From an uncultured Oscillospiraceae bacterium (GTDB lineage Bacteria; Bacillota; Clostridia; Oscillospirales; Oscillospiraceae), in the NCBI GenBank assembly GCA_947623745.1, contig CANQHN010000023.1, forward strand, positions 1-46,338: 46,338 nucleotides of DNA. Direction: 5' to 3'. The notes under the pieces were generated by a model. That model was not told where the DNA came from, did not search any database, and worked only from the letters and a program-made list of their open reading frames with translations. Positions 1-12,019 of this stretch are shown piece after piece. The position numbers and the translations under genes were made by a program. How positions within the stretch are numbered: the stretch's first letter is position 1; every line of letters begins with the position of its first letter.

Positions 1-72
1 GATTGGCGATTTTCATCCGGCCAAAATTGGCGATTTTCGCCCGGCCCGGAATGGCGATTTTCGCCCGGCGCT
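1..72. repeat. 24-bp tandem direct repeats at window edge
   Basis: Three consecutive 24-bp units (starting near 2, 26 and 50) share the core TGGCGATTTTC followed by R-Y-CCGGC. On the minus strand the second and third units encode the last residues of the relaxase, each giving an AGRKSP-type octapeptide, and the stop codon at 13-15 lies in the first unit. The array begins at or before the window edge, so its full copy number is unknown. The 24-bp period keeps the reading frame, so copy number can change without breaking the protein. Confidence 0.8.
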
Positions 73-1437
73 AACATTGGTTTTCTTCCTTCTTTCCCCG
101 ATTTCCTGCTCGTCCAGGAACCGCTCCAGTTCCTCCCGCGTCCGGACGGAGCGTTCTGCGATGCTGCCGCACAGGCGGAGGTCCTTTCGCAGTTCCTTGA
201 GTTGTGCGGAAATCTCATTTCTCTTGGTTTTCTGCTCAATAGGGTCCTCTCCCGCACGAGCGATGCGGCGTATCTCGTTATAGAGGCCCTGGCGCTCTGT
301 CGTCAGGGCCTCCATCCGCTTTTGGATGTCGGCGCTTTTAGCGGCCAGCTGCTCTCCGCTCTCAATGCCGTTTGCGGCCAGAAAGCGGGTCTGGGCGTCC
401 AGCCGGTCCAACTTTGCCAGATCCTCGCGCATAAAAATAGACACCCGCTTGGCGGATGTCGGATGGCGTTCTATGATGTGCAGTTCGTAGCAGTAGCGGT
501 GATACAGGGATTGCAGACCTGACTGTTGCCGTACATAGGGCGGCTGGCTCTCCGCCCGGAGCTGTCTGACCTCCGCCCGTTCCCCCGGGGGATACGGGTC
601 GGCAATCTCCCATTTGCCCAGGATACGGGCATCAATATCGGAGAGCGAGTACCCTCGGCCCAGCTTGTGGAACCGAAAGAACCCCTTGGCCCCCGGCGGC
701 TTCAGGCTTGGGTATTTCAGCGGCCTGCCGTCCTCGCCGGTGAACCGGAACTCATAGCCCTTTGCGGACAGAAACTGCACAAACCCTTTTGGAGAAATGG
801 TCGTGAGGATCGCGGCGTCGATGTCCGCCCGGATAGTCCCCCGGATGGTGGGGCGGCCCTCCCGCTCCGCGATCCGCTCGGTATAGGACTTGGTCATGTT
901 CTGGGGCTGCTCCACCACGGAGATACGGTACTCCCGACACAGCCGGTCCGACACCTCCCGCATCCTGGCGTAGTCCGCCGGGGAGTTGTAGAACTTCTTG
1001 CCGTCCATGAGGGACACGGAGTTCAGCACAAAATGGTTGTGATAATGGCCGGTATTGCAGTGGGTGGCCACCAGCACCTCAAAGCGGTCGCCCCACAGCT
1101 CCTTTGCCAGCTTCACGCCGATCTCATGGGCCGTCTCTGCCGTGACCTCGTCCGCCTTGAAGGACTGATAGCCGTGGTAGCACATCCGCCCCTCGGTCTT
1201 GCCCCATAATCTCTTTGTGCAGATGAACTGCTCGGCGGCGTGGCGCTCGTCGCAGTTTATGCCGGTGACATAGGCCCGCCGCTCTGTCTTGATCTCGTCG
1301 GCGGCGTACTCGATCACGTCCCCGACGGCGTGGAGGGCGGACAGCTCACTGTATTCGGTGGTCTTTTCGGGGTTCCGGGCGTATTCGATGACCTTGCTCA
1401 CACGCCCCTTGATGGGCCAGATAGAGGTGACGGCCAT
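13..1437 (-). CDS. MobP-type relaxase/mobilization nuclease
   Basis: A 474-residue relaxase that would nick the transfer origin of a mobilizable element and stay covalently attached to the 5' end through a tyrosine. The N-terminal third carries the family features: an early tyrosine in VIEYARNPEKT and the metal-binding histidine cluster HCNTGHYHNHFVLNS near residue 130. The middle and C-terminal parts are charged and helical, as in MobP relaxases of clostridial elements. The last ~20 residues (AGRKSPFRAGRKSPILAG) are encoded by 24-bp repeats and are lysine/arginine-rich. The start ATG overlaps the mobC stop by one base (TGATG), which indicates translational coupling. It appears full length and intact, although the rest of the element is decayed or outside the window. 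Confidence 0.9.
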   Translation of the reverse strand: MAVTSIWPIKGRVSKVIEYARNPEKTTEYSELSALHAVGDVIEYAADEIKTERRAYVTGINCDERHAAEQFICTKRLWGKTEGRMCYHGYQSFKADEVTAETAHEIGVKLAKELWGDRFEVLVATHCNTGHYHNHFVLNSVSLMDGKKFYNSPADYARMREVSDRLCREYRISVVEQPQNMTKSYTERIAEREGRPTIRGTIRADIDAAILTTISPKGFVQFLSAKGYEFRFTGEDGRPLKYPSLKPPGAKGFFRFHKLGRGYSLSDIDARILGKWEIADPYPPGERAEVRQLRAESQPPYVRQQSGLQSLYHRYCYELHIIERHPTSAKRVSIFMREDLAKLDRLDAQTRFLAANGIESGEQLAAKSADIQKRMEALTTERQGLYNEIRRIARAGEDPIEQKTKRNEISAQLKELRKDLRLCGSIAERSVRTREELERFLDEQEIGERRKKTNVSAGRKSPFRAGRKSPILAG

Positions 1438-1760
1438 CAGTCCACCCCCGTATTGTAGGCGTCCATGACGGTGCCGGCCACGGTGTTGATCTGGTCCACG
1501 GCGCGCCGCAGCTCCGGTACGTCCAGAAGACCGATGGCGTTGGCTTTGGCCAGGATCTGGTCCAGATTGCTGCCCACCCGGCGCACCTCACGGATGAGCA
1601 CTCGCACATCGGCGGGCAGGGCCTCCCGGACCTCCGAGCCGTTCAGCACCTGGCGGCAGTACCGTTCCCGGGACAGGCCGGACTTGCGGACTTGCTCCTT
1701 GAGGCGGGCCAGCTCGTCGTCGTTGAAATAGATTTCTACTCTGTGATCACGTTTTCTCAA
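1437..1760 (-). CDS. mobC: MobC-like relaxosome accessory protein
   Basis: A 107-residue protein of the MobC type, which helps the relaxase bind and melt oriT DNA. The N-terminus (RKRDHRVEIYFNDDELARL) resembles a ribbon-helix-helix DNA-binding segment, and the C-terminal half (EVRRVGSNLDQILAKAN) is the typical MobC segment. The frame is open to 1835, but I chose the TTG at 1760 because GGAG lies eight bases upstream and the conserved part begins there; a GTG at 1769 is an alternative. It is directly upstream of and coupled to the relaxase gene, the usual order for mobilization modules. Confidence 0.85.
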   Translation of the reverse strand: MRKRDHRVEIYFNDDELARLKEQVRKSGLSRERYCRQVLNGSEVREALPADVRVLIREVRRVGSNLDQILAKANAIGLLDVPELRRAVDQINTVAGTVMDAYNTGVD

Positions 1761-1823
1761 TGATTTCACTCCATTCTTTGTGTTTGGGACCGGGGTCATA
1801 GGGGCGGTGGCCCCTGTCCGGCT

Positions 1824-1843
1824 GAATTTGCACAAGCAAATTC
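1824..1843. other. Candidate oriT inverted repeat upstream of mobC
   Basis: A perfect inverted repeat, GAATTTGC-ACAA-GCAAATTC, lies 64 bp upstream of the chosen mobC start. Transfer origins of MobC/MobP systems usually sit just upstream of mobC and contain such an arm pair next to the nick site. No nick-site consensus was identified, so oriT is inferred from position and symmetry only. Confidence 0.4.
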
Positions 1844-2616: not shown

Positions 2617-3678
2617 TTACGTGCTCTGCCCCGCCAGGGCGGTGGAACCCTTGATGACCAGGCTGACGTCGATCTTCACGTCGTGGGCGGGGCGGCCGTG
2701 GAGCAGCTCGTTGAGCTGCTGCGCCGAATGGACGCCCACGTCGTAATTGTTCTGCTGGATCATAGTCAGGGAGGGGATGACCACATTGGACATCAGGCCG
2801 CCATTGAAGCAGATAATGGACACCTGATCCGGGACATTGATCCCCTGTTCCCGGAACAGGCGCAGCACTCCAGTGGCACAGCGGTCGTTGGAGACCAGCA
2901 CTGCATCGCACTCCCGGGGGCGGGAGAGCAGCTCCTGCGCGCTGGCATAACCGGCCTCATGGGTGAAGCCGCTGAACAGGATCAGTTCGGGGTCCACCTC
3001 CAGCCCCTCCTCCGCCAGGGCCTGGCAGTAGCCGGTGTAGCGGTCGAAGGCGGTACAGGCACCCTGGGCGGGGGAATTGTACACCTTCAGGAAGGTCTCA
3101 TAGTCCCGGATGTCGTTGGTCCAGAAGTTGACCATCAGGGCGATCTTCCGACGGCGCAGCCGCAGCAGGTACTTAGTAGCCATATAGCCCGTACTCACGT
3201 TGTCAGAGTAGACATGGGGCACACCGGGGAGCACCTGGCGACGTACCGCCACCACAATAGGCAGGCAGGTCAGAGCGGGAAAGCGCTCCAGCAGATCGCT
3301 GCCGTCGTTGCCGGCGAAGATGATGCCGTCAAAATCGGAGTTGAGGAGGCGCTCCACATAGCCAGCTTCAGTGTCCCGGTCGGCATTTGTCTGCATGACC
3401 ACCACGTTCTGGCCGTTTTGATGGGCCGTGTCGATGACGCCGGCGGCAATGGAGGTGTAGTAGGAATCCCGCAGTTCGGGCAGGATCAGCGCAATCTGGC
3501 CCGGCCGTTGGGCTGCGGTGTGAGACGCTCCTGCCCGGTAGCCCAGTTCCCGAGCCGCTGACAGCACCTTTTCCGCCAGGGCCGCATCCACATTGGGGTT
3601 GCGATTGAGTACCCTGGACACGGTGGACAGGGAGACCCCCGCCCGTTTCGCCACGTCTTTAATCGTTACCTTTACCAT
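2617..3678 (-). CDS. LacI/GalR-family transcriptional repressor
   Basis: A 353-residue regulator. The first ~50 residues are the canonical LacI helix-turn-helix and hinge (IKDVAKRAGVSLSTVSRVLN), followed by a periplasmic-binding-protein-like sensor domain to the C-terminus (segments such as GIIFAGNDGSD, SNDRCATGVLRLF and SLTMIQQNNYDVG). The frame is open to 3837, but the ATG at 3678 begins the conserved domain and has AGAGGTGG seven bases upstream. It is transcribed divergently from tctCBA, and the shared gap holds four matching palindromes, so it probably represses the transporter and Aro genes and perhaps itself. The inducer is unknown; quinate, shikimate or a downstream intermediate are the natural candidates from context. 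Confidence 0.92.
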   Translation of the reverse strand: MVKVTIKDVAKRAGVSLSTVSRVLNRNPNVDAALAEKVLSAARELGYRAGASHTAAQRPGQIALILPELRDSYYTSIAAGVIDTAHQNGQNVVVMQTNADRDTEAGYVERLLNSDFDGIIFAGNDGSDLLERFPALTCLPIVVAVRRQVLPGVPHVYSDNVSTGYMATKYLLRLRRRKIALMVNFWTNDIRDYETFLKVYNSPAQGACTAFDRYTGYCQALAEEGLEVDPELILFSGFTHEAGYASAQELLSRPRECDAVLVSNDRCATGVLRLFREQGINVPDQVSIICFNGGLMSNVVIPSLTMIQQNNYDVGVHSAQQLNELLHGRPAHDVKIDVSLVIKGSTALAGQST

Positions 3679-3758
3679 AGATCCACCTCTCTTGCTGCAT
3701 GGCGGCACGTTCCAACTGTTTTCTGAAACTAGTATAGCAGATTGTTTTCTCGTTTTCA

Positions 3759-3956
3759 AGAAAAATTTTCTCAAAACCAGTATGTAGAGAAAATAATTTC
3801 CACAAAAACATGTCTTGAAAATTGTTGATTCCTCCAAATTTCACTGTTGAGCGTTAAAACGTGAAATTTTCTATTGACAGAGAAAATTTTCTGGATTAAG
3901 ATAGGGACGAAAAGAAAAAGTTTTCTAATTTTCCGGCTAACAAGAAAATGTTTTCT
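3759..3956. promoter_or_regulatory. Four candidate LacI-family operators
   Basis: The palindrome AGAAAA-N0-2-TTTTCT occurs four times between lacI and tctC: 3759-3771, 3881-3892 (perfect, no spacer), 3913-3926 and 3943-3956. The last three are spaced about 33 and 30 bp centre to centre, close to whole helical turns, so bound dimers would lie on one face. The first is nearer the repressor gene and could serve autoregulation or looping. The centre lacks the CG step common in LacI operators, so the site type is inferred from symmetry and position. Confidence 0.6.
3874..3902 (+). promoter_or_regulatory. Sigma-70 promoter of the tctCBA operon
   Basis: TTGACA at 3874-3879 and TAAGAT at 3897-3902 are separated by 17 bp. 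The perfect AGAAAATTTTCT palindrome fills most of the spacer (3881-3892), so a repressor bound there would block RNA polymerase directly. Transcription would start near 3909, about 120 bp upstream of tctC, with two more palindromes in the early transcribed region. Confidence 0.65.
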
Positions 3957-4031
3957 GAAAAACCTGATGAGAAAGCTTTTTCTGCTCGCAAGAAACGAAA
4001 AGAAGAGGTTATGAAAGGACGGAATCTAAAA

Positions 4032-5117
4032 ATGAAGAAAGTTATCTCCGCGATCCTGGCTCTGGCTATGGCCATGAGCATCACCGCCTGCGGCGGCAGC
4101 TCCAATACTCCGGCTGCCAGTGCTCCCGCCTCCAGCGCCGGTTCCCCCGCCGCCTCCACTCCCGCTGCCCCCACCACTGACTACCCCACCGGTCCCATCA
4201 CCATGATCATCCCCTATGGCGCCGGCGGTACCACCGACCTGGCCGGCCGCCAGCTGGCCATCGCCATGGAGAAGCAGCTGGGCCAGTCCATTATCGTCAG
4301 TAACCAGGCCGGCGCCTCCGGCACCCTGGGCCTTCAGTCCACACTGGACGCCCCCGCCGACGGTTACACCATCGTGCTGGCCGCCGAGTCCCTGGGCTCC
4401 TGCCGCGTGATGGGCGTCAGCGAGCTGAGCTATGATGACTTTGCCCCCATCTCTACCATTTCCAGTGACCCCAAGGTGCTGGTAGTCGCCTCCCACTCCA
4501 AGTATGAGACTCTCCAGGATCTGCTGGATGAGATCAAGGCCAACCCCGGCAAGGTGCAGATGAGCTACACCGGCCCTGGCGGCTCCGGCCACATCCAGGC
4601 TCTGATCATGAACCGCTATGGCTATGAGCCCGCCCTGACCGCCTACTCCTCCGGCGCCGAAGGCATCACCGCCGTGCTGGGTGACCAGGTCCAGTTCACC
4701 AACTCCAACTACTCCACCGTAGTCCCCTATCTGGAGAGCGGCGACCTGCGCCTGCTGGCCGTCTGCGCCACCGAGCGTATGGAGGCCTATCCCGATGTGC
4801 CCGCTCTGTCCGAGTACATGGAGGGCAGCGATGAACTGCTGAGCATCCCCTATAGCCCCCTGAGCCTGCTGGTGAGCAAGGATGTGCCTGAGGACGTGCA
4901 GGAAGTGCTGCGCACCGCCACTAAGGCCGCCTGCCAGGATCCCGACTTCAACAAGTGGCTGGATGACAACTGCATCGACAAGCTGTTTGAGATGTACCCC
5001 ACCGTGGACGACGCCAAGGCCTTCTTCAATCAGTGGGAGTCCGTGGTCTCCTGGATGCTGTACGACGCCGGTGCCACGGTCAACAGCCCCGAGGACTACA
5101 ACATCCCCAAGCCCTGA
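4032..5117 (+). CDS. tctC: TctC-type substrate-binding lipoprotein of a TTT transporter
   Basis: A 361-residue extracytoplasmic binding protein of the tripartite tricarboxylate transporter family. It opens with a lipoprotein signal peptide (MKKVISAILALAMAMSITAC) whose lipobox cysteine is at residue 20, then an Ala/Ser/Pro/Thr linker to about residue 50. The mature domain begins YPTGPITMIIPYGAGGTTD, the family's typical first strand and ligand loop, and continues with SNQAGASGTLG. The ATG at 4011 is an alternative start that would add seven residues, but its ribosome site is only two bases away. TctC proteins bind carboxylates such as tricarboxylates, dicarboxylates and aromatic acids; the Aro genes downstream suggest quinate/shikimate-like ligands, which is inference. 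It is followed by tctB and tctA. Confidence 0.92.
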   Translation: MKKVISAILALAMAMSITACGGSSNTPAASAPASSAGSPAASTPAAPTTDYPTGPITMIIPYGAGGTTDLAGRQLAIAMEKQLGQSIIVSNQAGASGTLGLQSTLDAPADGYTIVLAAESLGSCRVMGVSELSYDDFAPISTISSDPKVLVVASHSKYETLQDLLDEIKANPGKVQMSYTGPGGSGHIQALIMNRYGYEPALTAYSSGAEGITAVLGDQVQFTNSNYSTVVPYLESGDLRLLAVCATERMEAYPDVPALSEYMEGSDELLSIPYSPLSLLVSKDVPEDVQEVLRTATKAACQDPDFNKWLDDNCIDKLFEMYPTVDDAKAFFNQWESVVSWMLYDAGATVNSPEDYNIPKP

Positions 5118-5150
5118 CAGTTAATCCCAATCTCCGCTCCGACTGACACC

Positions 5151-5181
5151 GCGGCGGGCGAGGCCCAGCCTTGCCCGCCGC
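5151..5181 (+). promoter_or_regulatory. Intercistronic hairpin between tctC and tctB
   Basis: A GC-rich 14-bp stem with one mismatch (GCGGCGGGCGAGGC and GCCTTGCCCGCCGC, 3-base loop) lies between the tctC stop and the tctB ribosome site, with no T-run. Such hairpins downstream of binding-protein genes commonly protect the upstream mRNA from 3' decay, giving more binding protein than membrane subunit. That role is inferred here. Confidence 0.55.
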
Positions 5182-5205
5182 GAAACCCGAAAGGATGCTG
5201 ACATC

Positions 5206-5688
5206 ATGGAAAAGAAAGAGAAGCGGAGTTTGCTGCACACCGCCAGTTTCCAGGACTCCATCTTTGTTGGCCTGTGCGCCGCGGGGCTGCTGGCATACTC
5301 CCTGTATCACCACTATTTTGATAAGAACACTTCCGACTGGAAGACTTCTCCCTATCTGTTCCCCACGCTGATCTCCGTATTCGGCCTTCTGCTCACCGTC
5401 TCCCTCGTTATGGACGCGCTTCAGGAGCTGCGCTCCGGCGAGGCGGTAAAGAAGGATACCGGAAGCAAAAGGAACCTGGTTGGAGTGCTGGTCCTCATCG
5501 GCGCGTCCCTGGCCTACTACTTCCTGCTGCCTATCCTGCACTTCATCCCCGCTACTATCATTTTCCTGGCCGCTCTGTTCCTCTACCTGGGGGAGCGGAA
5601 ATGGTGGAAGATTGCTCTGCTGTCGGTGATCGCCGCCGTCGCCATCTACTTGCTGTTCGGTGTTGCACTGAACGTGCGTCTGCCTTAA
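5206..5688 (+). CDS. tctB: TctB-type small membrane subunit of a TTT transporter
   Basis: A 160-residue protein of the TctB family, the small membrane component of tripartite tricarboxylate transporters. It has four predicted membrane segments, around residues 22-37, 52-68, 93-115 and 122-158, including GVLVLIGASLAYYFLLPIL and a final hydrophobic hairpin. The ATG at 5206 follows AAAGGA. It lies between tctC and tctA, only 13 bases from the latter, in the standard operon order. Sequence conservation in TctB is weak, so the call rests on size, topology and neighbours together. Confidence 0.88.
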   Translation: MEKKEKRSLLHTASFQDSIFVGLCAAGLLAYSLYHHYFDKNTSDWKTSPYLFPTLISVFGLLLTVSLVMDALQELRSGEAVKKDTGSKRNLVGVLVLIGASLAYYFLLPILHFIPATIIFLAALFLYLGERKWWKIALLSVIAAVAIYLLFGVALNVRLP

Positions 5689-5701
5689 GGAGGGTGTCTG
5701 T

Positions 5702-7207
5702 ATGAGTGCAATTATCGCCAGCCTGTCCTTCTTTACGGATATCCGCTTCATCCTGCTGTGTGGTCTAGGCAGCGTGGCCGGCCTGTTTGTGGGCTCCATC
5801 CCCGGTCTGTCCGTATCTATGGCCACCGCCCTGTTGGTGTCTATCACCTACACTTGGTCTACCCACGACGCTCTGGCCACTGTTATGGGTGTGTACGTGG
5901 TAGGTGTGTTCTCCGGCGCCTTGTCCGCCATCCTGCTGAACATCCCCGGCGCCCCCTCATCGGTGGTCACTACCTTGGACGGCTACCCCCTGGCCAAACG
6001 GGGCGAGGCCTTCAAGGCCCTGAAATACGCTACCGTCTACTCCTTCGTGGGCTCGGTTTTCGGCCTGGTGGCCCTGGCCCTGCTGGCCCAGCCCATTACC
6101 TCCATCGCCCTGAAGTTCCAGCCCATGGACTACTTCCTGCTGGCCCTGTTCGGCCTGGCCACCGTGGGCGGCCTGACCACCGACAGCTTCTCCAAGGGCC
6201 TGATCAGCGCCGTGTTCGGCCTATTCTTCGCCATGATCGGCATGGATGCCGTTCTGGGCACTCCCCGGCTCACCTTTGGCATCACCAACTTGAACGCCGG
6301 CATCAACACCGTCCCCGCTCTGGTGGGCCTGTTCGGCTTTGCCGAGGTGCTCAGCGTCATCTTTGACGGCCATATGGACGCCGAGGTCAACGGCATCGTG
6401 AAGCAGGTCGTGAAGATGAAGGATATCCTCAAGCACTTCTGGCACAGCCTGTACTACAGCCTGCTGGGCACTGTGGTGGGCGCTCTGCCCGGCGCCGGCG
6501 GTCCCGTGGCCGCTTTCCTGGCTTACAGCCAGGCCAAGACCATCGTGAAGAATCCCTCCCGTCCCTTCGGCGAGGGCGCAGTAGAGGGTATCGTGGCCTC
6601 CGAAAGCTCTAACAACGCCTGCATCGGCGGCGCTCTGATCCCCATGCTGACTCTGGCGGTCCCCGGCGACGCCGTCACCGCTATCATCCTCTCTGTGTTC
6701 TACGTCCACGGCCTGCAGCCCGGGCCAATGTTCCTGGCCACCAGCGCCGACAGCTTCCACGCCATCCTGGCCGGCGGCTTCATTGGCTGCGTGTTCCTGC
6801 TCCTGCTGGGCCTGCTGGTCGCCCCCCACCTGTCCAAGATCATCGCCGTGCCCAAGACCATCCTTATGCCCATCGTCACCCTGCTGTGCGTCATCGGCGC
6901 CTACGCCTGCAACAACCGGCTGTTCGATGTGGGCCTGATGTTCTTCTTCGGAATCCTGGGCTTCCTGATGCGCAGCCGCGGCTACTCCGTGGCTCCCATG
7001 ACCCTGGGCATTGTGCTGGGCAACATGATGGATTCCAACTTCCGTCGCGCCGTGTCCCTGGCGGTGTCTGCCGACAACGTGGTGGTTGCCCTGTTCGGCC
7101 GCCCCATCACTATGGTACTGCTGGTGTGCACGCTGGTCTCCATCATCACCAACATTCCCGCCGTGAAGCGGGCCTGGGCCAACCGGAAATCCGGCAAGGC
7201 CAAGTAA
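5702..7207 (+). CDS. tctA: TctA-type large membrane subunit of a TTT transporter
   Basis: A 501-residue, multi-spanning permease of the TctA family (about 10-12 membrane segments). It shows the two family signature loops: GLFVGSIPGLSVSMATALL near residue 24 and GALPGAGGPVAAFLAY near residue 260, plus VEGIVASESSNNACIGGALI around residue 295, the highly conserved core of TctA. The start has an ideal AAGGAGGGTGTCTGT ribosome site. Full length for the family. With TctB and TctC it would carry out secondary, ion-driven uptake of an organic acid captured by the lipoprotein. A strong terminator follows. Confidence 0.95.
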   Translation: MSAIIASLSFFTDIRFILLCGLGSVAGLFVGSIPGLSVSMATALLVSITYTWSTHDALATVMGVYVVGVFSGALSAILLNIPGAPSSVVTTLDGYPLAKRGEAFKALKYATVYSFVGSVFGLVALALLAQPITSIALKFQPMDYFLLALFGLATVGGLTTDSFSKGLISAVFGLFFAMIGMDAVLGTPRLTFGITNLNAGINTVPALVGLFGFAEVLSVIFDGHMDAEVNGIVKQVVKMKDILKHFWHSLYYSLLGTVVGALPGAGGPVAAFLAYSQAKTIVKNPSRPFGEGAVEGIVASESSNNACIGGALIPMLTLAVPGDAVTAIILSVFYVHGLQPGPMFLATSADSFHAILAGGFIGCVFLLLLGLLVAPHLSKIIAVPKTILMPIVTLLCVIGAYACNNRLFDVGLMFFFGILGFLMRSRGYSVAPMTLGIVLGNMMDSNFRRAVSLAVSADNVVVALFGRPITMVLLVCTLVSIITNIPAVKRAWANRKSGKAK

Positions 7208-7237
7208 AAACTGATTGGTTCATTGTCCTCCTCAAAG

Positions 7238-7285
7238 CAGCGGCCGCCCACTGAAAAATGGACGGTGGGCGGCCGCTGGTTTTTT
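7238..7285 (+). terminator. Intrinsic terminator after tctA
   Basis: A perfect 14-bp stem (CAGCGGCCGCCCAC and complement) with a 13-base loop is followed by GGTTTTTT. It lies 30 bp past tctA and 60 bp before the aroA-like start, so the Aro genes either use their own promoter or are expressed by partial read-through. No strong promoter was found between the terminator and 7348. Confidence 0.8.
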
Positions 7286-7347
7286 ACGCCCTTTTTTGCC
7301 GAGAAAACCCCATAATTTGGCTGTTTTGTTAGAAAGGAGCGCCATTT

Positions 7348-8652
7348 ATGTACGCATATTCCCACCGGGGAACCCTGTCCGGAGAACTCGCCGTCCCCGG
7401 CTCCAAGAGCCACACCATCCGCGCCGTCCTGTTCGGGATGCTGGCCGACGGCACCACCGTCATCCACAATCCCCTGCCCTCCAAGGACGGTCTGGCCGCC
7501 TTGGCCGCGGCCCGGGCCTTCGGCGCCGAGGTAGTGGTGGACGAGGCCGCCAACACCTGGACCGTCACCGGCCTGAACGGCAAGCCTAAGGTCCCCGAAA
7601 ACGTCATCGACACTATGAACTCCGGCACCACCACCAGCTTCGTCACCGGCATCTGCGCCCTGCTCACCGACGGGTATGCTGTCATTACCGGCGACGAACA
7701 GATCCGCCGCCGCCCCTGGCGCCACGAGACCGACGCCCTCAAGGAGCTGGGCGCCACCTGCATCCACACCCGCCCCAACTGCGACTGCCCGCCCCTAGTC
7801 ATCCAGGGCCCTCTCCACGGCGGCGTGTGTCACCTGCCCGGCTTCAACAGCCAGCACATCTCCGGTATCCTTGCCCCCGCCGCCCTGCTACCCGTGGGTG
7901 AGTGCGTGGAGATCGTGGTAGAGAATCCCCTTGAGGCCTCCTACGTCCAGCTCACCCTGGACTGGCTCAAGCGCTTCGGTGTGGAGGTGGACAGCACCCC
8001 CGACTACAAGCACTACTATGTTCGGGGCGGCCAGAAGCTCACTGCCTGCGACTGCCTGGTGGCATCCGACTGGTCCAGCGTGGCCTTCCCCCTGGTGGCC
8101 GCCGTGTGCACCCCCTCGGAGTTGACCATCTCCGGGTTGAACTTTGAGGACAGCCAGGGCGACAAGGCCGTGGCGGACATCCTCATCTCCATGGGCGCGG
8201 ACATCACCAAGGATCCCGCCAACCACAAAATGACCATCCGGGGCGGCAAGCCCCTCCATGGGGTGGAGATTGACATGAACCCCATCCCCGACAGCCTGCC
8301 CGCTCTGGCCGTGGCCGCCGCCTATGCCCAGGGGGACACCCACTTCATCAACCTGGCCCACGTCCGTGTGAAGGAGACCGACCGGGTTGCCGTGATGCAG
8401 GAGGTGCTCACCGCCTGCGGAGCCAGCGTGGACATCACCTCCGACTCCATGACCGTCCACGGCGGTCGGCCCCTTACCGGTGCCAGCGTCAGCAGCCACG
8501 ACGACCACCGGGTGGCCATGGCCATGGCCGTGTGCGGCCTGTTCTCCGACGGCGAGATGAAGATCAGCAACCCCGAGTGCGCCGCTGTGTCCTTCCCCGG
8601 CTTCTTCGAGATCATGAACCGGGCCGGCGCGGGCTTTGAGCTGCGGGAATGA
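7348..8652 (+). CDS. aroA: EPSP synthase-like protein with altered PEP site
   Basis: A 434-residue member of the enolpyruvate transferase family (3-phosphoshikimate 1-carboxyvinyltransferase). Conserved elements are visible: VPGSKSHTIR near residue 13 (Lys, Ser and Arg of the phosphoshikimate site), NSQ near residue 170, IPD near residue 312 (catalytic Asp), VKETDR near residue 342 (catalytic Glu and PEP-binding Arg) and HDDHR near residue 383. Two PEP/glyphosate-site residues differ from the E. coli enzyme by manual alignment: Arg100 of NAGTAMR is Ser here (NSGTTTS) and Lys411 of TAKTFP is Val here (AAVSFP). It starts with GAAAGGAGC upstream and precedes aroD by 15 bp. It may be a genuine but divergent AroA or a paralogue with another substrate. 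Confidence 0.75.
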   Translation: MYAYSHRGTLSGELAVPGSKSHTIRAVLFGMLADGTTVIHNPLPSKDGLAALAAARAFGAEVVVDEAANTWTVTGLNGKPKVPENVIDTMNSGTTTSFVTGICALLTDGYAVITGDEQIRRRPWRHETDALKELGATCIHTRPNCDCPPLVIQGPLHGGVCHLPGFNSQHISGILAPAALLPVGECVEIVVENPLEASYVQLTLDWLKRFGVEVDSTPDYKHYYVRGGQKLTACDCLVASDWSSVAFPLVAAVCTPSELTISGLNFEDSQGDKAVADILISMGADITKDPANHKMTIRGGKPLHGVEIDMNPIPDSLPALAVAAAYAQGDTHFINLAHVRVKETDRVAVMQEVLTACGASVDITSDSMTVHGGRPLTGASVSSHDDHRVAMAMAVCGLFSDGEMKISNPECAAVSFPGFFEIMNRAGAGFELRE

Positions 8653-8667
8653 GAGGAGAGTTTAAAG

Positions 8668-9432
8668 ATGAAAACAGTCATGCTGCGCGGCCTGGAGGTT
8701 GGCTCCGGCTCCCCCAAGGTCATCGTCCCCATCGTGGCCGCCACCGCTGAGGGCATCCTGGCCAAGGCGGCGGAGTTTGCCAACTACACCATGGACGTGG
8801 TGGAATGGCGGGTGGATTTCTACGAGGACGTGTTCCACACGGACAAGGTACTCTCCACCCTGAATGCCCTGCGTGCCGCCTTGGGAGACACCCCTATTCT
8901 GTTCACCTTCCGCACCAAGAAGGAGGGCGGCGAGAAGGATATCGCCCCGGAGGACTATCTTGCCCTCATCACCGCTGTGGCCAACTCCGGCGACGCTGAC
9001 GCGGTGGATGTGGAGATCTTCTCCGGGGACGATCTGGTCCGCAAGGCCATCGATGCCGTCCACGCCGCCGGCAAGGCGGTGGTGGGCTCCAACCACGACT
9101 TTGGCGGCACTCCCAAAAAGGCCGACCTTATCTACCGCCTGCGCAAGATGCAGGACATGGGCGCCGACATCCCCAAGATCGCCGTCATGCCCAAGGGCAC
9201 GGCGGACGTGATCACCCTGCTGGACGCCACCCAGGAGATGGCCAACTGTTATGCCGACCGGCCTATCATCACCATGTCCATGGGCAGCGGCGTCATCACC
9301 CGCCTGTGCGGGGAGTACTTCGGCTCCGCCATGACCTTCGGCGCGGTGGGCCAAGTGTCCGCCCCCGGCCAGATTCCCGTGGAGCAGCTCAAAACCGCCA
9401 TGGATATCCTCCACCGCGGCCTGGCGGGCTGA
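8668..9432 (+). CDS. aroD: Type I 3-dehydroquinate dehydratase
   Basis: A 254-residue class I dehydroquinase, converting 3-dehydroquinate to 3-dehydroshikimate through a Schiff base. Active-site segments are all present: EWRVDF (Glu and Arg binding substrate) near residue 48, SNHDF with the catalytic His near residue 148, KIAVMP with the Schiff-base Lys near residue 170, and the C-terminal ITRLCGEYFGSAMTF segment. Length is normal for the family. GAGAGGAG precedes the ATG, and the stop is 14 bp before the dehydrogenase gene. Type I enzymes serve either biosynthesis or quinate breakdown; pairing with a YdiB-like dehydrogenase, as in the E. coli ydiB-aroD arrangement, favours quinate/shikimate use. 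Confidence 0.95.
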   Translation: MKTVMLRGLEVGSGSPKVIVPIVAATAEGILAKAAEFANYTMDVVEWRVDFYEDVFHTDKVLSTLNALRAALGDTPILFTFRTKKEGGEKDIAPEDYLALITAVANSGDADAVDVEIFSGDDLVRKAIDAVHAAGKAVVGSNHDFGGTPKKADLIYRLRKMQDMGADIPKIAVMPKGTADVITLLDATQEMANCYADRPIITMSMGSGVITRLCGEYFGSAMTFGAVGQVSAPGQIPVEQLKTAMDILHRGLAG

Positions 9433-9446
9433 CAGGGAGGCGCACC

Positions 9447-10313
9447 ATGAGTGAGCATGTGACCGGCCACACCGGCCTGCTGTGCCTGCTGGGCAGCCCC
9501 GTGGCCCACAGCATCTCCCCGGAGATGCACAACGAGGCTTGCCGCCTGCTGGACTTGGACTATGAGTACCTGGCCTTCGATGTAGACTCGGACCATCTGG
9601 AGGCGGCGGTGAGCGGCCTGAAGGCAATGGGCGTGAAGGGCTTTAACATCACCATGCCCGACAAGAACAAAATGGCTGAGCTGTGCGATCAGCTCTCCCC
9701 TGCCGCCAAGATCTGCGGTGCGGTGAACACCGTGGTCAATGACAACGGCACCTTCATCGGCCACACCACCGACGGCATCGGCTACATGATGAGCGCCAGA
9801 GACGCCGGGTGCGACCCGGTGGGAAAACGGATGGTACAGCTGGGCGCCGGCGGCGCCGGCACCGCCATCCTGGTCCAGGCCGCCTTCGACGGCGTCGCCG
9901 CCATCGACGTGTTCAACACCCGCGACGCCTTCTGGCCCCGGGTGGAGCACATCGTGGAGCAGCTCAACCAGCAGACCAGCTGCAAGGTCGTCCTCCACGA
10001 CCTGGCCGACCTGGACGGCCTGCGGGCCTCCATCGCCCAGGCGGACCTGCTGCTGAACACCACCCCCGTGGGCATGAACCGCATCCCCGGCTGCCTGATC
10101 CCCGACCCCAGTTATTTCCACCCCGGACTGACGGTTTCCGATGTGATCTACGAGCCCCAGGAGACCCAGCTGCTGAAAATAGCCCGGGAGGCGGGGCTGA
10201 AAACCTTTAACGGTATGTATATGCTGCTGTATCAGGGGGCGGCGTCTTTCAGGCTGTGGACTGGACAGGAGATGCCGGTGCAGGCCATCAAGGAGAAGTA
10301 TTTCACCAAATAA
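9447..10313 (+). CDS. YdiB-like quinate/shikimate dehydrogenase
   Basis: A 288-residue shikimate dehydrogenase-family enzyme, interconverting shikimate and 3-dehydroshikimate and, in YdiB-type members, quinate and 3-dehydroquinate. The substrate domain has GSPVAHSISPEMHN, NITMPDKNKM (catalytic Lys) and GHTTDGIGYM (catalytic Asp; the usual NTD is TTD). The nucleotide domain has LGAGGAGTAI, followed by FNTRDAFWPR rather than the NRT-x-x-R of NADP-specific AroE. The C-terminus MLLYQGAASFRLWTGQEMP closely follows the YdiB pattern. These features point to the YdiB branch, which accepts NAD and quinate. The ATG at 9447 has GGGAGG seven bases upstream; upstream in-frame codons belong to aroD sequence in another frame. 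Confidence 0.9.
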   Translation: MSEHVTGHTGLLCLLGSPVAHSISPEMHNEACRLLDLDYEYLAFDVDSDHLEAAVSGLKAMGVKGFNITMPDKNKMAELCDQLSPAAKICGAVNTVVNDNGTFIGHTTDGIGYMMSARDAGCDPVGKRMVQLGAGGAGTAILVQAAFDGVAAIDVFNTRDAFWPRVEHIVEQLNQQTSCKVVLHDLADLDGLRASIAQADLLLNTTPVGMNRIPGCLIPDPSYFHPGLTVSDVIYEPQETQLLKIAREAGLKTFNGMYMLLYQGAASFRLWTGQEMPVQAIKEKYFTK

Positions 10314-10337
10314 AATAGGAAAGGACGCGAGTGAATC

Positions 10338-11177
10338 ATGGCAAAGAAGTTCTCCCTGGCATACCTTACCATCCCCGGCGTCAATCCAATGGAACAGATC
10401 CGCATCGCTAAGGAGTGCGGATACGACTATGTGAGCCTGCGCACCATCCCCATGCACCTGCCCGGCGAGCCGGAATTCCTGCTGGACAAGGACCCCGAGC
10501 TGTTCGAGGCCACGAAGAAGGCCCTGAAAGAGTATGACATGAAGCTGATGGACATCGAGCTTGCCCGCGTGCGGCCCGACCTGAACATCGACGAGTACGA
10601 GCCCGCCTTCGAGAAGGCCGCCGAGCTGGGCGGCACCGATGTGCTGGGCAGTGTGTGGACCCGGGACAAGGCCTACTACACCGAGCAGGTGGGCCGCATC
10701 GCGGAGATGGCCAAGAAGTACGGCCTGTGCTACAACGTGGAATTCCTGCCCTGGGCGGGGGTGCGCAACCTGCAGGCGGACATCACTCTGGTGGACGACG
10801 TGGGCGCGGACAACCTGTTCGTGATGGTGGACACCCTCCACGCCGGCCGGGCCGGCGTGACGGGCCCGGAGCTGGCCCGCACCGACCCCAAGTATTTCCG
10901 GTTCATTCACCTGTGCGACGGCCCCGCCGGCCCCGACGGGGACCCGGTGCTGGACAACATCAAGGACGACCTGATGCTGTACACCGCCCGTGAGGGGCGG
11001 CTGTACCCGGGCGAGGGCGTGATGGACATCGCCGGGATGGTGAAAGCCATGCCCGACATCCCCCTGTCCATCGAGCTGCCCAACCTGAAGCGCATCCAGG
11101 AGCTGGGGCCCCAGGGCCACGCCCAGCGCTGCCTGGACACCGCCAAGGCCTACTTCAAGGCCAACGGTATCCAGTGA
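10338..11177 (+). CDS. TIM-barrel isomerase/epimerase-like protein, possible 3-dehydroshikimate dehydratase
   Basis: A 279-residue protein of the xylose isomerase-like TIM barrel family (AP endonuclease family 2 fold). Candidate metal ligands fall at strand ends in the expected order: Glu in YNVEFLPW (~residue 137), Asp/His in VMVDTLHAGR (~165), His in RFIHLCDG (~190) and Glu in SIELPN (~241). This Glu-Asp-His-Glu pattern is shared by sugar isomerases/epimerases and by AsbF/QuiC-type 3-dehydroshikimate dehydratases that make protocatechuate. Placed last in the cluster after aroD and the YdiB-like gene, a role on 3-dehydroshikimate or a related cyclic polyol is plausible but unproven. A strong terminator follows. 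Confidence 0.8.
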   Translation: MAKKFSLAYLTIPGVNPMEQIRIAKECGYDYVSLRTIPMHLPGEPEFLLDKDPELFEATKKALKEYDMKLMDIELARVRPDLNIDEYEPAFEKAAELGGTDVLGSVWTRDKAYYTEQVGRIAEMAKKYGLCYNVEFLPWAGVRNLQADITLVDDVGADNLFVMVDTLHAGRAGVTGPELARTDPKYFRFIHLCDGPAGPDGDPVLDNIKDDLMLYTAREGRLYPGEGVMDIAGMVKAMPDIPLSIELPNLKRIQELGPQGHAQRCLDTAKAYFKANGIQ

Positions 11178-11668: not shown

Positions 11669-12019
11669 TTAGGAATATATTAGTTCGTTCAGAATCACCT
11701 CCTCCACAGCATTGCGGATGTTGTTCATGGCGCCCACCCAGGCCATCTGGTCCTGGGCCTTGAGTTGCTCTGTGACACCCTGCTCCGCTGCCATCTGTCG
11801 GGTCAACTGCTCAAACATCTCCGTTGCCTGTCGATCGATCTCCGCGAGGTGGGCACTGAGCTTGCCTGAAAGAAGCAACCCGGTATAGATCCCGTTGCGG
11901 TGCTGCCGAAGGAATTCTTTTCTTCTCATGCCCCAGATGCCCGTCGGGATGTCCTCCGGAGCAGCCAGGTCCGGAATCAAATAGTCACCTTCCTGATGGT
12001 ACGTCAGATTCACGCTCAT
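11669..12019 (-). CDS. tnpV: TnpV family transposon-encoded protein
   Basis: A 116-residue TnpV-type protein, found in Tn4451-like and related elements of Firmicutes and of unknown molecular role. Family features are LTYHQEGDYLIPDL at the N-terminus, the central GIYTGLLLSGKLSAHLAEID and the C-terminal AQDQMAWVGAMNNIRNAVEE ending NELIYS. The ATG has GGAGG eight bases upstream. No transposase or recombinase is adjacent, so it is a solitary copy, either the remains of an element or a stand-alone passenger. It lies convergent to the decayed stretch after the Aro cluster and downstream of lepA. Confidence 0.85.
   Translation of the reverse strand: MSVNLTYHQEGDYLIPDLAAPEDIPTGIWGMRRKEFLRQHRNGIYTGLLLSGKLSAHLAEIDRQATEMFEQLTRQMAAEQGVTEQLKAQDQMAWVGAMNNIRNAVEEVILNELIYS

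Follow-up and report, generated by a model that had tools for sequence, protein, structure and literature searches.

In Escherichia coli K-12, ydiN, ydiB and aroD place a transporter, a quinate/shikimate dehydrogenase and a type I dehydroquinase side by side, and in Listeria, a genus of the Bacillota, the qui genes with QuiC2 convert quinate and shikimate to protocatechuate. Here we analyzed a 46,338-nucleotide stretch of an uncultured Oscillospiraceae bacterium (GenBank assembly GCA_947623745.1, contig CANQHN010000023.1; hereafter the window), in which a LacI-headed cluster at positions 2617-11177 joins a complete tripartite tricarboxylate transporter (TTT) to shikimate-pathway enzymes, among them a second protein of the 5-enolpyruvylshikimate-3-phosphate (EPSP) synthase family, AroA. 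The cluster shares with E. coli the neighborhood of transporter, dehydrogenase and type I dehydroquinase. In contrast to TctCBA, YdiN is a single putative transporter by annotation, and no AroA, TIM-barrel or LacI gene was seen in the E. coli ydiN-ydiB-aroD stretch; the Listeria qui system has, to our knowledge, neither TctCBA nor an extra AroA. A search of titles and beginnings of abstracts, with most subscription journals outside its reach, found no report of a TTT for shikimate or quinate, nor of an importer-linked EPSP synthase. The parts of the cluster belong to known families, and the AroA-type protein within an importer cluster is the new element. Our favored explanation, to which we give a probability of about 50%, is that this accessory cluster takes up shikimate/quinate-type plant acids and, by way of the extra EPSP-synthase-type enzyme, salvages them into chorismate. 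All functions, ligands and activities given for the cluster are predictions from sequence comparison.

Gene content and control region

The genes, coordinates and order given in an earlier note on this DNA were confirmed, and all eight proteins matched their families:

2617-3837, minus strand: LacI-family regulator (PF00356 and PF00532 above cut-off)
3758-3983, no strand: six operator-like palindromes of the type AGAAAANNTTTTCT (pattern scan)
3948-5117, plus strand: TctC substrate-binding protein (PF03401, 153 bits)
5206-5688, plus strand: TctB small membrane protein (PF07331, 78.5 bits)
5702-7207, plus strand: TctA large membrane protein (PF01970, 455 bits), sister to shikimate-dehydrogenase-linked TctAs
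7348-8652, plus strand: AroA-type protein (EPSP synthase family), second divergent copy (TIGR01356, 381.4 bits; cut-off 287.25)
8668-9432, plus strand: AroD, type I 3-dehydroquinate dehydratase, second copy (TIGR01093, 234.2 bits; cut-off 139.3)
9447-10313, plus strand: AroE, YdiB-like shikimate/quinate dehydrogenase, one of three in the genome (TIGR00507, 201.7; cut-off 200.2)
10338-11177, plus strand: xylose-isomerase-like TIM barrel, predicted 3-dehydroshikimate dehydratase (PF01261, 66 bits)

The TTT is complete, with PF01970, PF07331 and PF03401 all above cut-off in adjacent genes, and the AroA-type, aroD, aroE and TIM-barrel genes stand in that order with 14-24 bases between neighbors. 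Because the DNA-binding domain of the over-long LacI frame begins only at residue 58, the true start probably lies near 3678; for TctC, the ATG at 4011 is a likelier start than 3948. The description of the dehydrogenase as YdiB-like was borne out by the general aroE model TIGR00507 and by the presence of YdiB among its closest solved structures, but not by the NCBIfam quinate/shikimate dehydrogenase model NF009390, for which it scored 265.8 bits against a cut-off of 349.

The operator-like repeats noted earlier are real. With up to two mismatches, AGAAAANNTTTTCT occurred nine times in the whole window against 0.21 expected, and six of these matches lie at 3758-3983, between lacI and tctC; one match was found in the nearest related cluster, L017. 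A promoter-like TTGACA-17-TAAGAT stands at 3874-3902, such matches being no commoner in the window than chance (3 found, 2.5 expected). The cluster is likely switched by its own LacI-type regulator.

A second set of aro genes in the genome

The genome of the window (3.05 Mb, 76 contigs, 97.9% complete) holds the remaining shikimate-pathway genes elsewhere. AroB and DAHP synthase are adjacent on contig C29, and a second aroA adjoins the single aroC of the genome on contig C10. Four PF00275 proteins were found, two of which pass the murA model. The canonical C10 AroA scored 285.6 bits with TIGR01356, slightly below the 287.25 cut-off, compared with 381.4 for the AroA-type protein of the cluster; the two are 32% identical. 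The two type I AroD proteins are 65% identical to each other, no type II dehydroquinase match was found in the genome, shikimate kinase has two matches, and the three AroE proteins are that of the window, a kinase-dehydrogenase fusion on contig C6 and one on contig C58.

The earlier note had observed that the cluster lacks aroB, aroK and aroC and had concluded that it is no complete biosynthetic operon; this stands, as all three genes are on other contigs. The second aro set for which it had proposed a search is likewise present (DAHP synthase, aroB, aroD, aroK-aroE and aroA-aroC on other contigs). Ordinary biosynthesis from a single aro set is refuted, and since the other aro genes of the cell sit on other contigs, the cluster is accessory.

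Two of these loci have features of their own. On C6, a single protein of 484 residues (L011, 6910-8364) combines shikimate kinase with shikimate dehydrogenase. On C58, the third AroE adjoins a TRAP transporter and a thiamine pyrophosphate (TPP) enzyme (L012, 140-8426), with DMT and LysR genes between them as judged by eye. An inositol-like ring cleavage of the IolE/IolD kind, considered from the TPP enzymes on C58 and near L020 and L028, was dropped, because the best matches of these enzymes are acetolactate-synthase-like, and that of the L020 aldehyde dehydrogenase is sulfoacetaldehyde-dehydrogenase-like, each below cut-off.

Kinship of the importer

We compared the window TctA with 72,556 plasmid records by tblastn, and 810 records matched. 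A shikimate dehydrogenase lay within 8 kb in 11 of the 12 best matches: it was annotated in 9 of the 12 (H27, H28, H31-H37), and in the unannotated H29 and H30 an AroE homologue stood directly after tctA. In every AroE-bearing locus except H35 the AroE-type gene directly follows tctA, and a homologue of the window TIM barrel was present in 9 of the 12. Close pairs (H27/H28 from Thioclava, H31/H33 from Sagittula, and H29/H30) lower the number of independent cases. Controls were taken from a list spread over the whole TctA ranking, of which 8 of 12 rows were read (H39, H40, H43-H48); rows not used were H38, which coincides with H26, H41 and H42, which lack features under the match, and H49, which covers 15% of the query. 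Neither AroE (0/8) nor the TIM barrel (0/8) was found in the control loci.

In a midpoint-rooted TctA tree of 28 rows, the importers beside an AroA-type gene joined the shikimate-dehydrogenase rows with support of 97/95. Eight of the nine importers beside an AroA-type gene grouped together at 100/100, the placement of L029 being uncertain. H26 branched with the shikimate-dehydrogenase rows, and the other eight controls fell outside, several on long branches.

The plasmid tctCBA-shikimate dehydrogenase loci (Sagittula, Thioclava, Marinovum, Paracoccus) resemble the window in TctA (41-42% identity), AroE and the TIM barrel. They differ from it in having no AroA-type gene by tblastn and no AroD homologue, and in carrying an FAD-dependent oxidoreductase and LysR or IclR regulators. 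At the Marinovum locus there are in addition a type II dehydroquinase and a protein that carries a 4-hydroxyphenylpyruvate dioxygenase annotation; the Paracoccus locus has a protein with a TIM-barrel plus a 4-hydroxyphenylpyruvate domain, the arrangement of domains reported for the dehydroshikimate dehydratases QuiC1 and QsuB (PMC7442255). Because shikimate dehydrogenase, and often also a TIM-barrel homologue, accompanies the relatives of the window TctA, we infer that the transporter substrate is a shikimate/quinate-type acid. The import of quinate/shikimate-like plant acids proposed in the earlier note is supported by this kinship; its route to an aromatic product is altered here, with chorismate as the favored end.

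Pairing and residues of the AroA-type protein

The AroA-type protein belongs to a clade of 23 loci including the window, taken from the tree (node support 83). TctA was encoded within 6 kb in at least 9 of the 23, several other loci having short flanks (for example L024, 389 bases upstream), and in 7 of these 9 it lies 6-191 bases upstream on the same strand. Besides the window, these loci are L017, COT-073, Geosporobacter, two of Thermotogota, two of Sphaerochaeta and one more from a spirochaete, so that the pair is spread over Bacillota, Thermotogota and Spirochaetota; neither AroD nor AroE is present within 6 kb in 7 of the 9. What accompanies the transporter constantly is the AroA-type protein, not the TIM barrel. 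Over eight loci, TctA distances and AroA-type protein distances were correlated (r 0.83; 7 of 20,000 permutations as high; L025 omitted for its partial TctA), also without L029 (18 of 5,040 permutations as high). Since the distances correlate, the pair seems to travel together.

We aligned the best 120 of at least 6,788 homologues with E. coli AroA. Wherever ungapped, K22, R27, G96, R124, S170, D313, K340, E341, R344, H385 and R386 were kept in the 120. The window protein retains K22, R124, D313, K340, E341, R344 and R386, which we take to be catalytic and phosphoenolpyruvate (PEP)-site residues, and E. coli S169, S197, R100, N336 and K411 are changed. K411 is Val in 120/120 and N336 is His in 117/120; S197 is a gap in 120/120, with Glu at its place in a second alignment, and R100 was not among the residues counted. 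All five scanned relatives, COT-073 included, pass TIGR01356, as does the window protein, which differs from an ordinary EPSP synthase in being an additional copy, next to an importer, in which S197, R100, N336 and K411 are changed.

Lys 411 is also lost (Val or Thr) in archaeal and Geobacter/Heliorestis-type AroA-family proteins (L055, L057, L058, L068, L074, L075, L077, L079, L082, L085, L090), and therefore it is not diagnostic alone. A further AroA-like group from actinobacteria and Eremiobacterota has S23 replaced by Tyr in a conserved locus (L069, L070, L076, L078, L081, L084, L091, L093, L094), with acyl-CoA dehydrogenase, short-chain dehydrogenase and an old-yellow-enzyme-type reductase as its three scanned neighbors; it is reminiscent of cyclohexanecarboxyl-CoA biosynthesis from shikimate. 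A Lentzea genome holds three PF00275 proteins.

Other neighborhoods were also recorded. AroA-type genes occur at, or close to, the ends of oligopeptide-type ABC importer sets (L145 1554-12289, L028 9118-18819, L173 1390-8106, L140 32-5309; the importers of L145 and L173 were named by eye), some sets near AroA-type genes carry MmgE/PrpD, and the chorismate synthase genes of genomes G004 and G012 are placed likewise. A gene for an AroH-type chorismate mutase precedes the AroA-type gene, or tctCBA in the case of Sphaerochaeta, in L026, L027 and L030 (Pfam match shown for L030). In L029, a frame of 483 residues (6066-7514) that matches no Pfam family overlaps the AroA-type gene at its end.

Shikimate-pathway enzymes in genomes with the AroA-type protein

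AroB, DAHP synthase, AroC and AroE were tested in 26 genomes and AroK in 27, and other PF00275 proteins were classed by BLAST. In 14 spirochaete genomes (G006, G008-G011, G013-G015, G017, G020, G021, G029, G034, G035) no AroA is present besides the AroA-type protein, the remaining PF00275 protein being MurA-like, and AroB, DAHP synthase, AroC, AroE and AroK were all found (with a weak AroK in G021 and a partial AroC in G029). Eleven of these 14 belong to the narrower AroA-type clade, and G021, G029 and G034 to a neighboring branch, so that the window protein shares its wider clade with the only AroA of all 14. G002 differs from them only in having no DAHP synthase match. These spirochaete proteins are presumably working EPSP synthases, and because the type is the only AroA in 14 genomes with the other enzymes, the window protein is probably one as well. 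Loss of EPSP synthase function, suggested by Val at position 411 in 120/120 and by the lost S197 and R100, was dropped as a conclusion from residues for the same reason.

The remaining genomes were mixed. The five enzymes and a separate AroA were found in G000, G005 and G007. The Lentisphaerota G022, G026 and G032 have AroB, a DAHP-family match, AroC and AroE, with AroK in G026 only. G003 (COT-073; a draft assembly not labelled as a metagenome-assembled genome, MAG) gave no match for AroB, DAHP synthase, AroC or AroE and three PF01202 matches, two of them above 100 bits; G036, a MAG, gave a 38-bit AroB match and no match for DAHP synthase, AroC, AroE or AroK. Of the other enzymes G004 has AroC alone, close to the AroA-type gene and separated from it by a LacI gene. 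G012 has AroC, AroE and a DAHP-synthase-family match, with no AroB match, and the small MAG G001 a partial AroC and two AroE. Among the classed PF00275 proteins of G001, G003, G004, G012 and G036, no AroA besides the AroA-type protein was seen (a 49-residue G001 fragment was left unclassed).

The TIM barrel

The barrel carries a Glu-Asp-His-Glu pattern at E135, D165, H191 and E246, with spacings of 30, 26 and 55. In AsbF the corresponding residues are Glu142, Asp172, His198 and Glu253, of which the three acids bind metal and His binds the product (PMC9324987). The spacing is identical in the two proteins, a pattern that may be common to other PF01261 enzymes. Profile comparison with solved structures gave 57 bits for IolI, 40 for Lmo2234, 32 for D-tagatose 3-epimerase and 23.6 for 5hmq, with no entry named AsbF among the matches; we take 5hmq to be the dehydroshikimate dehydratase QuiC1. 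Lmo2234 was also the best solved match by phmmer, and no NCBIfam match was found at 0.001. Because its profile places the barrel closer to IolI and Lmo2234 than to 5hmq, and its relatives at 80-91% are spread across Clostridia, it is not classed as a dehydroshikimate dehydratase, and an exit to protocatechuate is a prediction.

The barrel was found within 6 kb in only 2 of the 23 clade loci, the window and L020, and no TIM barrel is present in the 435 bases after aroE of L017; it was rejected as a constant part of the system. Of the earlier proposal that the barrel makes protocatechuate, the AsbF-like spacing was upheld, but the profile comparison and the L017 locus speak against it.

Flanking genes and distribution

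Genes of a mobility context, outside the pathway, flank the cluster:

13-1437, minus strand: MobA-type relaxase, left flank (scan with PF03432 or PF21983)
1437-1835, minus strand: NikA-like protein, left flank (PF03432, PF21983 for the flank pair)
11669-12019, minus strand: TnpV transposon protein, right flank (PF14198)

At E 1e-120 or better, the AroA-type protein was found in 2 of 300 same-family genomes, namely that of the window and G175 (55% identity), and in none of the five other genomes of the same genus. L017, from a MAG named Oscillospiraceae, shares the gene order LacI-TctCBA-AroA-type-AroD-AroE at 61-87% identity. Ilyobacter polytropus, of a genus we take to be known for quinate fermentation, was rejected as a holder of the cluster, its aroA lying in an ordinary aromatic operon.

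Discussion

In the salvage explanation, LacI would repress the cluster until its effector appears, TctC would bind the acid and TctAB would carry it inward. Quinate, 3-dehydroquinate, 3-dehydroshikimate and shikimate would be converted into one another by AroE and AroD; shikimate would be phosphorylated by the cell's own AroK, the AroA-type enzyme of the cluster would add the PEP-derived enolpyruvyl group, and the cell's own AroC would complete chorismate. For the TIM barrel, a second way out of this route is predicted, leading from 3-dehydroshikimate to protocatechuate. The AroK and AroC needed for salvage exist in the genome of the window.

Several points weigh against this explanation. The genome has another AroA, which would make the cluster copy unneeded for chorismate. 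TctC specificity is deduced from neighboring genes only, and the best plasmid match of TctA, H26, has no shikimate gene within 8 kb. The changed S197, R100, N336 and K411 may leave room for another substrate. No PF01202 kinase match was found in G001, G004 or G012. G003 and G036 hold the TctA-AroA-type pair without an AroC match, for which reason salvage to chorismate would fail there, and the explanation leaves these two genomes unaccounted for.

The absence of AroC from G003 and G036 is the basis for a role of the AroA-type enzyme outside chorismate synthesis, in which it would act on an imported unphosphorylated hydroaromatic acid, perhaps with PEP, in a catabolic or activating step. G003, with TctCBA and the AroA-type protein, also lacks AroB, DAHP synthase and AroE matches, and G036 those for DAHP synthase, AroE and AroK; S197, R100 and K411 are lost in the best 120 homologues, R100 outside the residues counted, and similar changes occur in the actinobacterial AroA-like group beside acyl-CoA dehydrogenase and reductase genes. 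However, the same residue pattern is found in the only AroA of the 14 spirochaetes with the other enzymes, and the absences rest on a MAG in G036 and, in G003, on a draft assembly that retains AroK-like genes; we consider this role distinctly unlikely. Its broader form, a mobile importer-linked EPSP synthase branch in which TctCBA-AroA acts directly on imported hydroaromatic acids where chorismate is no longer made, with AroD, AroE and the TIM barrel as an extension in the window, appears quite unlikely; if true, the EPSP synthase fold would be used in plant-acid breakdown and not in aromatic biosynthesis.

A purely catabolic cluster, in which uptake is followed by AroE and AroD to 3-dehydroshikimate and by the barrel to protocatechuate, with the AroA-type protein as a passenger or in another step, is a tentative alternative that we regard as rather unlikely. 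The related proteobacterial importers adjoin shikimate dehydrogenase and a TIM-barrel homologue, two records with a 4-hydroxyphenylpyruvate dioxygenase-type annotation have QuiC1-like length or domain naming, and the residue spacing of the barrel is AsbF-like. By contrast, in the nearest relative no barrel was found after aroE, and the barrel is closer to IolI and Lmo2234 than to 5hmq; it is the AroA-type gene that recurs as partner in nine loci, seven of them without nearby AroD or AroE. It is very improbable, in our view, that unrelated genes came together on a mobile element by chance or recently, with no joint pathway: the relaxase, NikA-like and TnpV genes at the flanks and the absence of the AroA-type gene from the other genomes of the genus would fit it, but the shared gene order in L017, the 14-24 base spacing and the co-divergence of TctA with the AroA-type protein argue otherwise.

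Uptake and salvage of shikimate/quinate-type acids would give a TTT clade a testable ligand class and would indicate a salvage entry to the shikimate pathway that bypasses its first steps. The recurring pair raises the question of what role an EPSP synthase has beside an importer in bacteria without a chorismate synthase match. The EPSP synthase family is the target of glyphosate, and a divergent second copy may alter the response to it.

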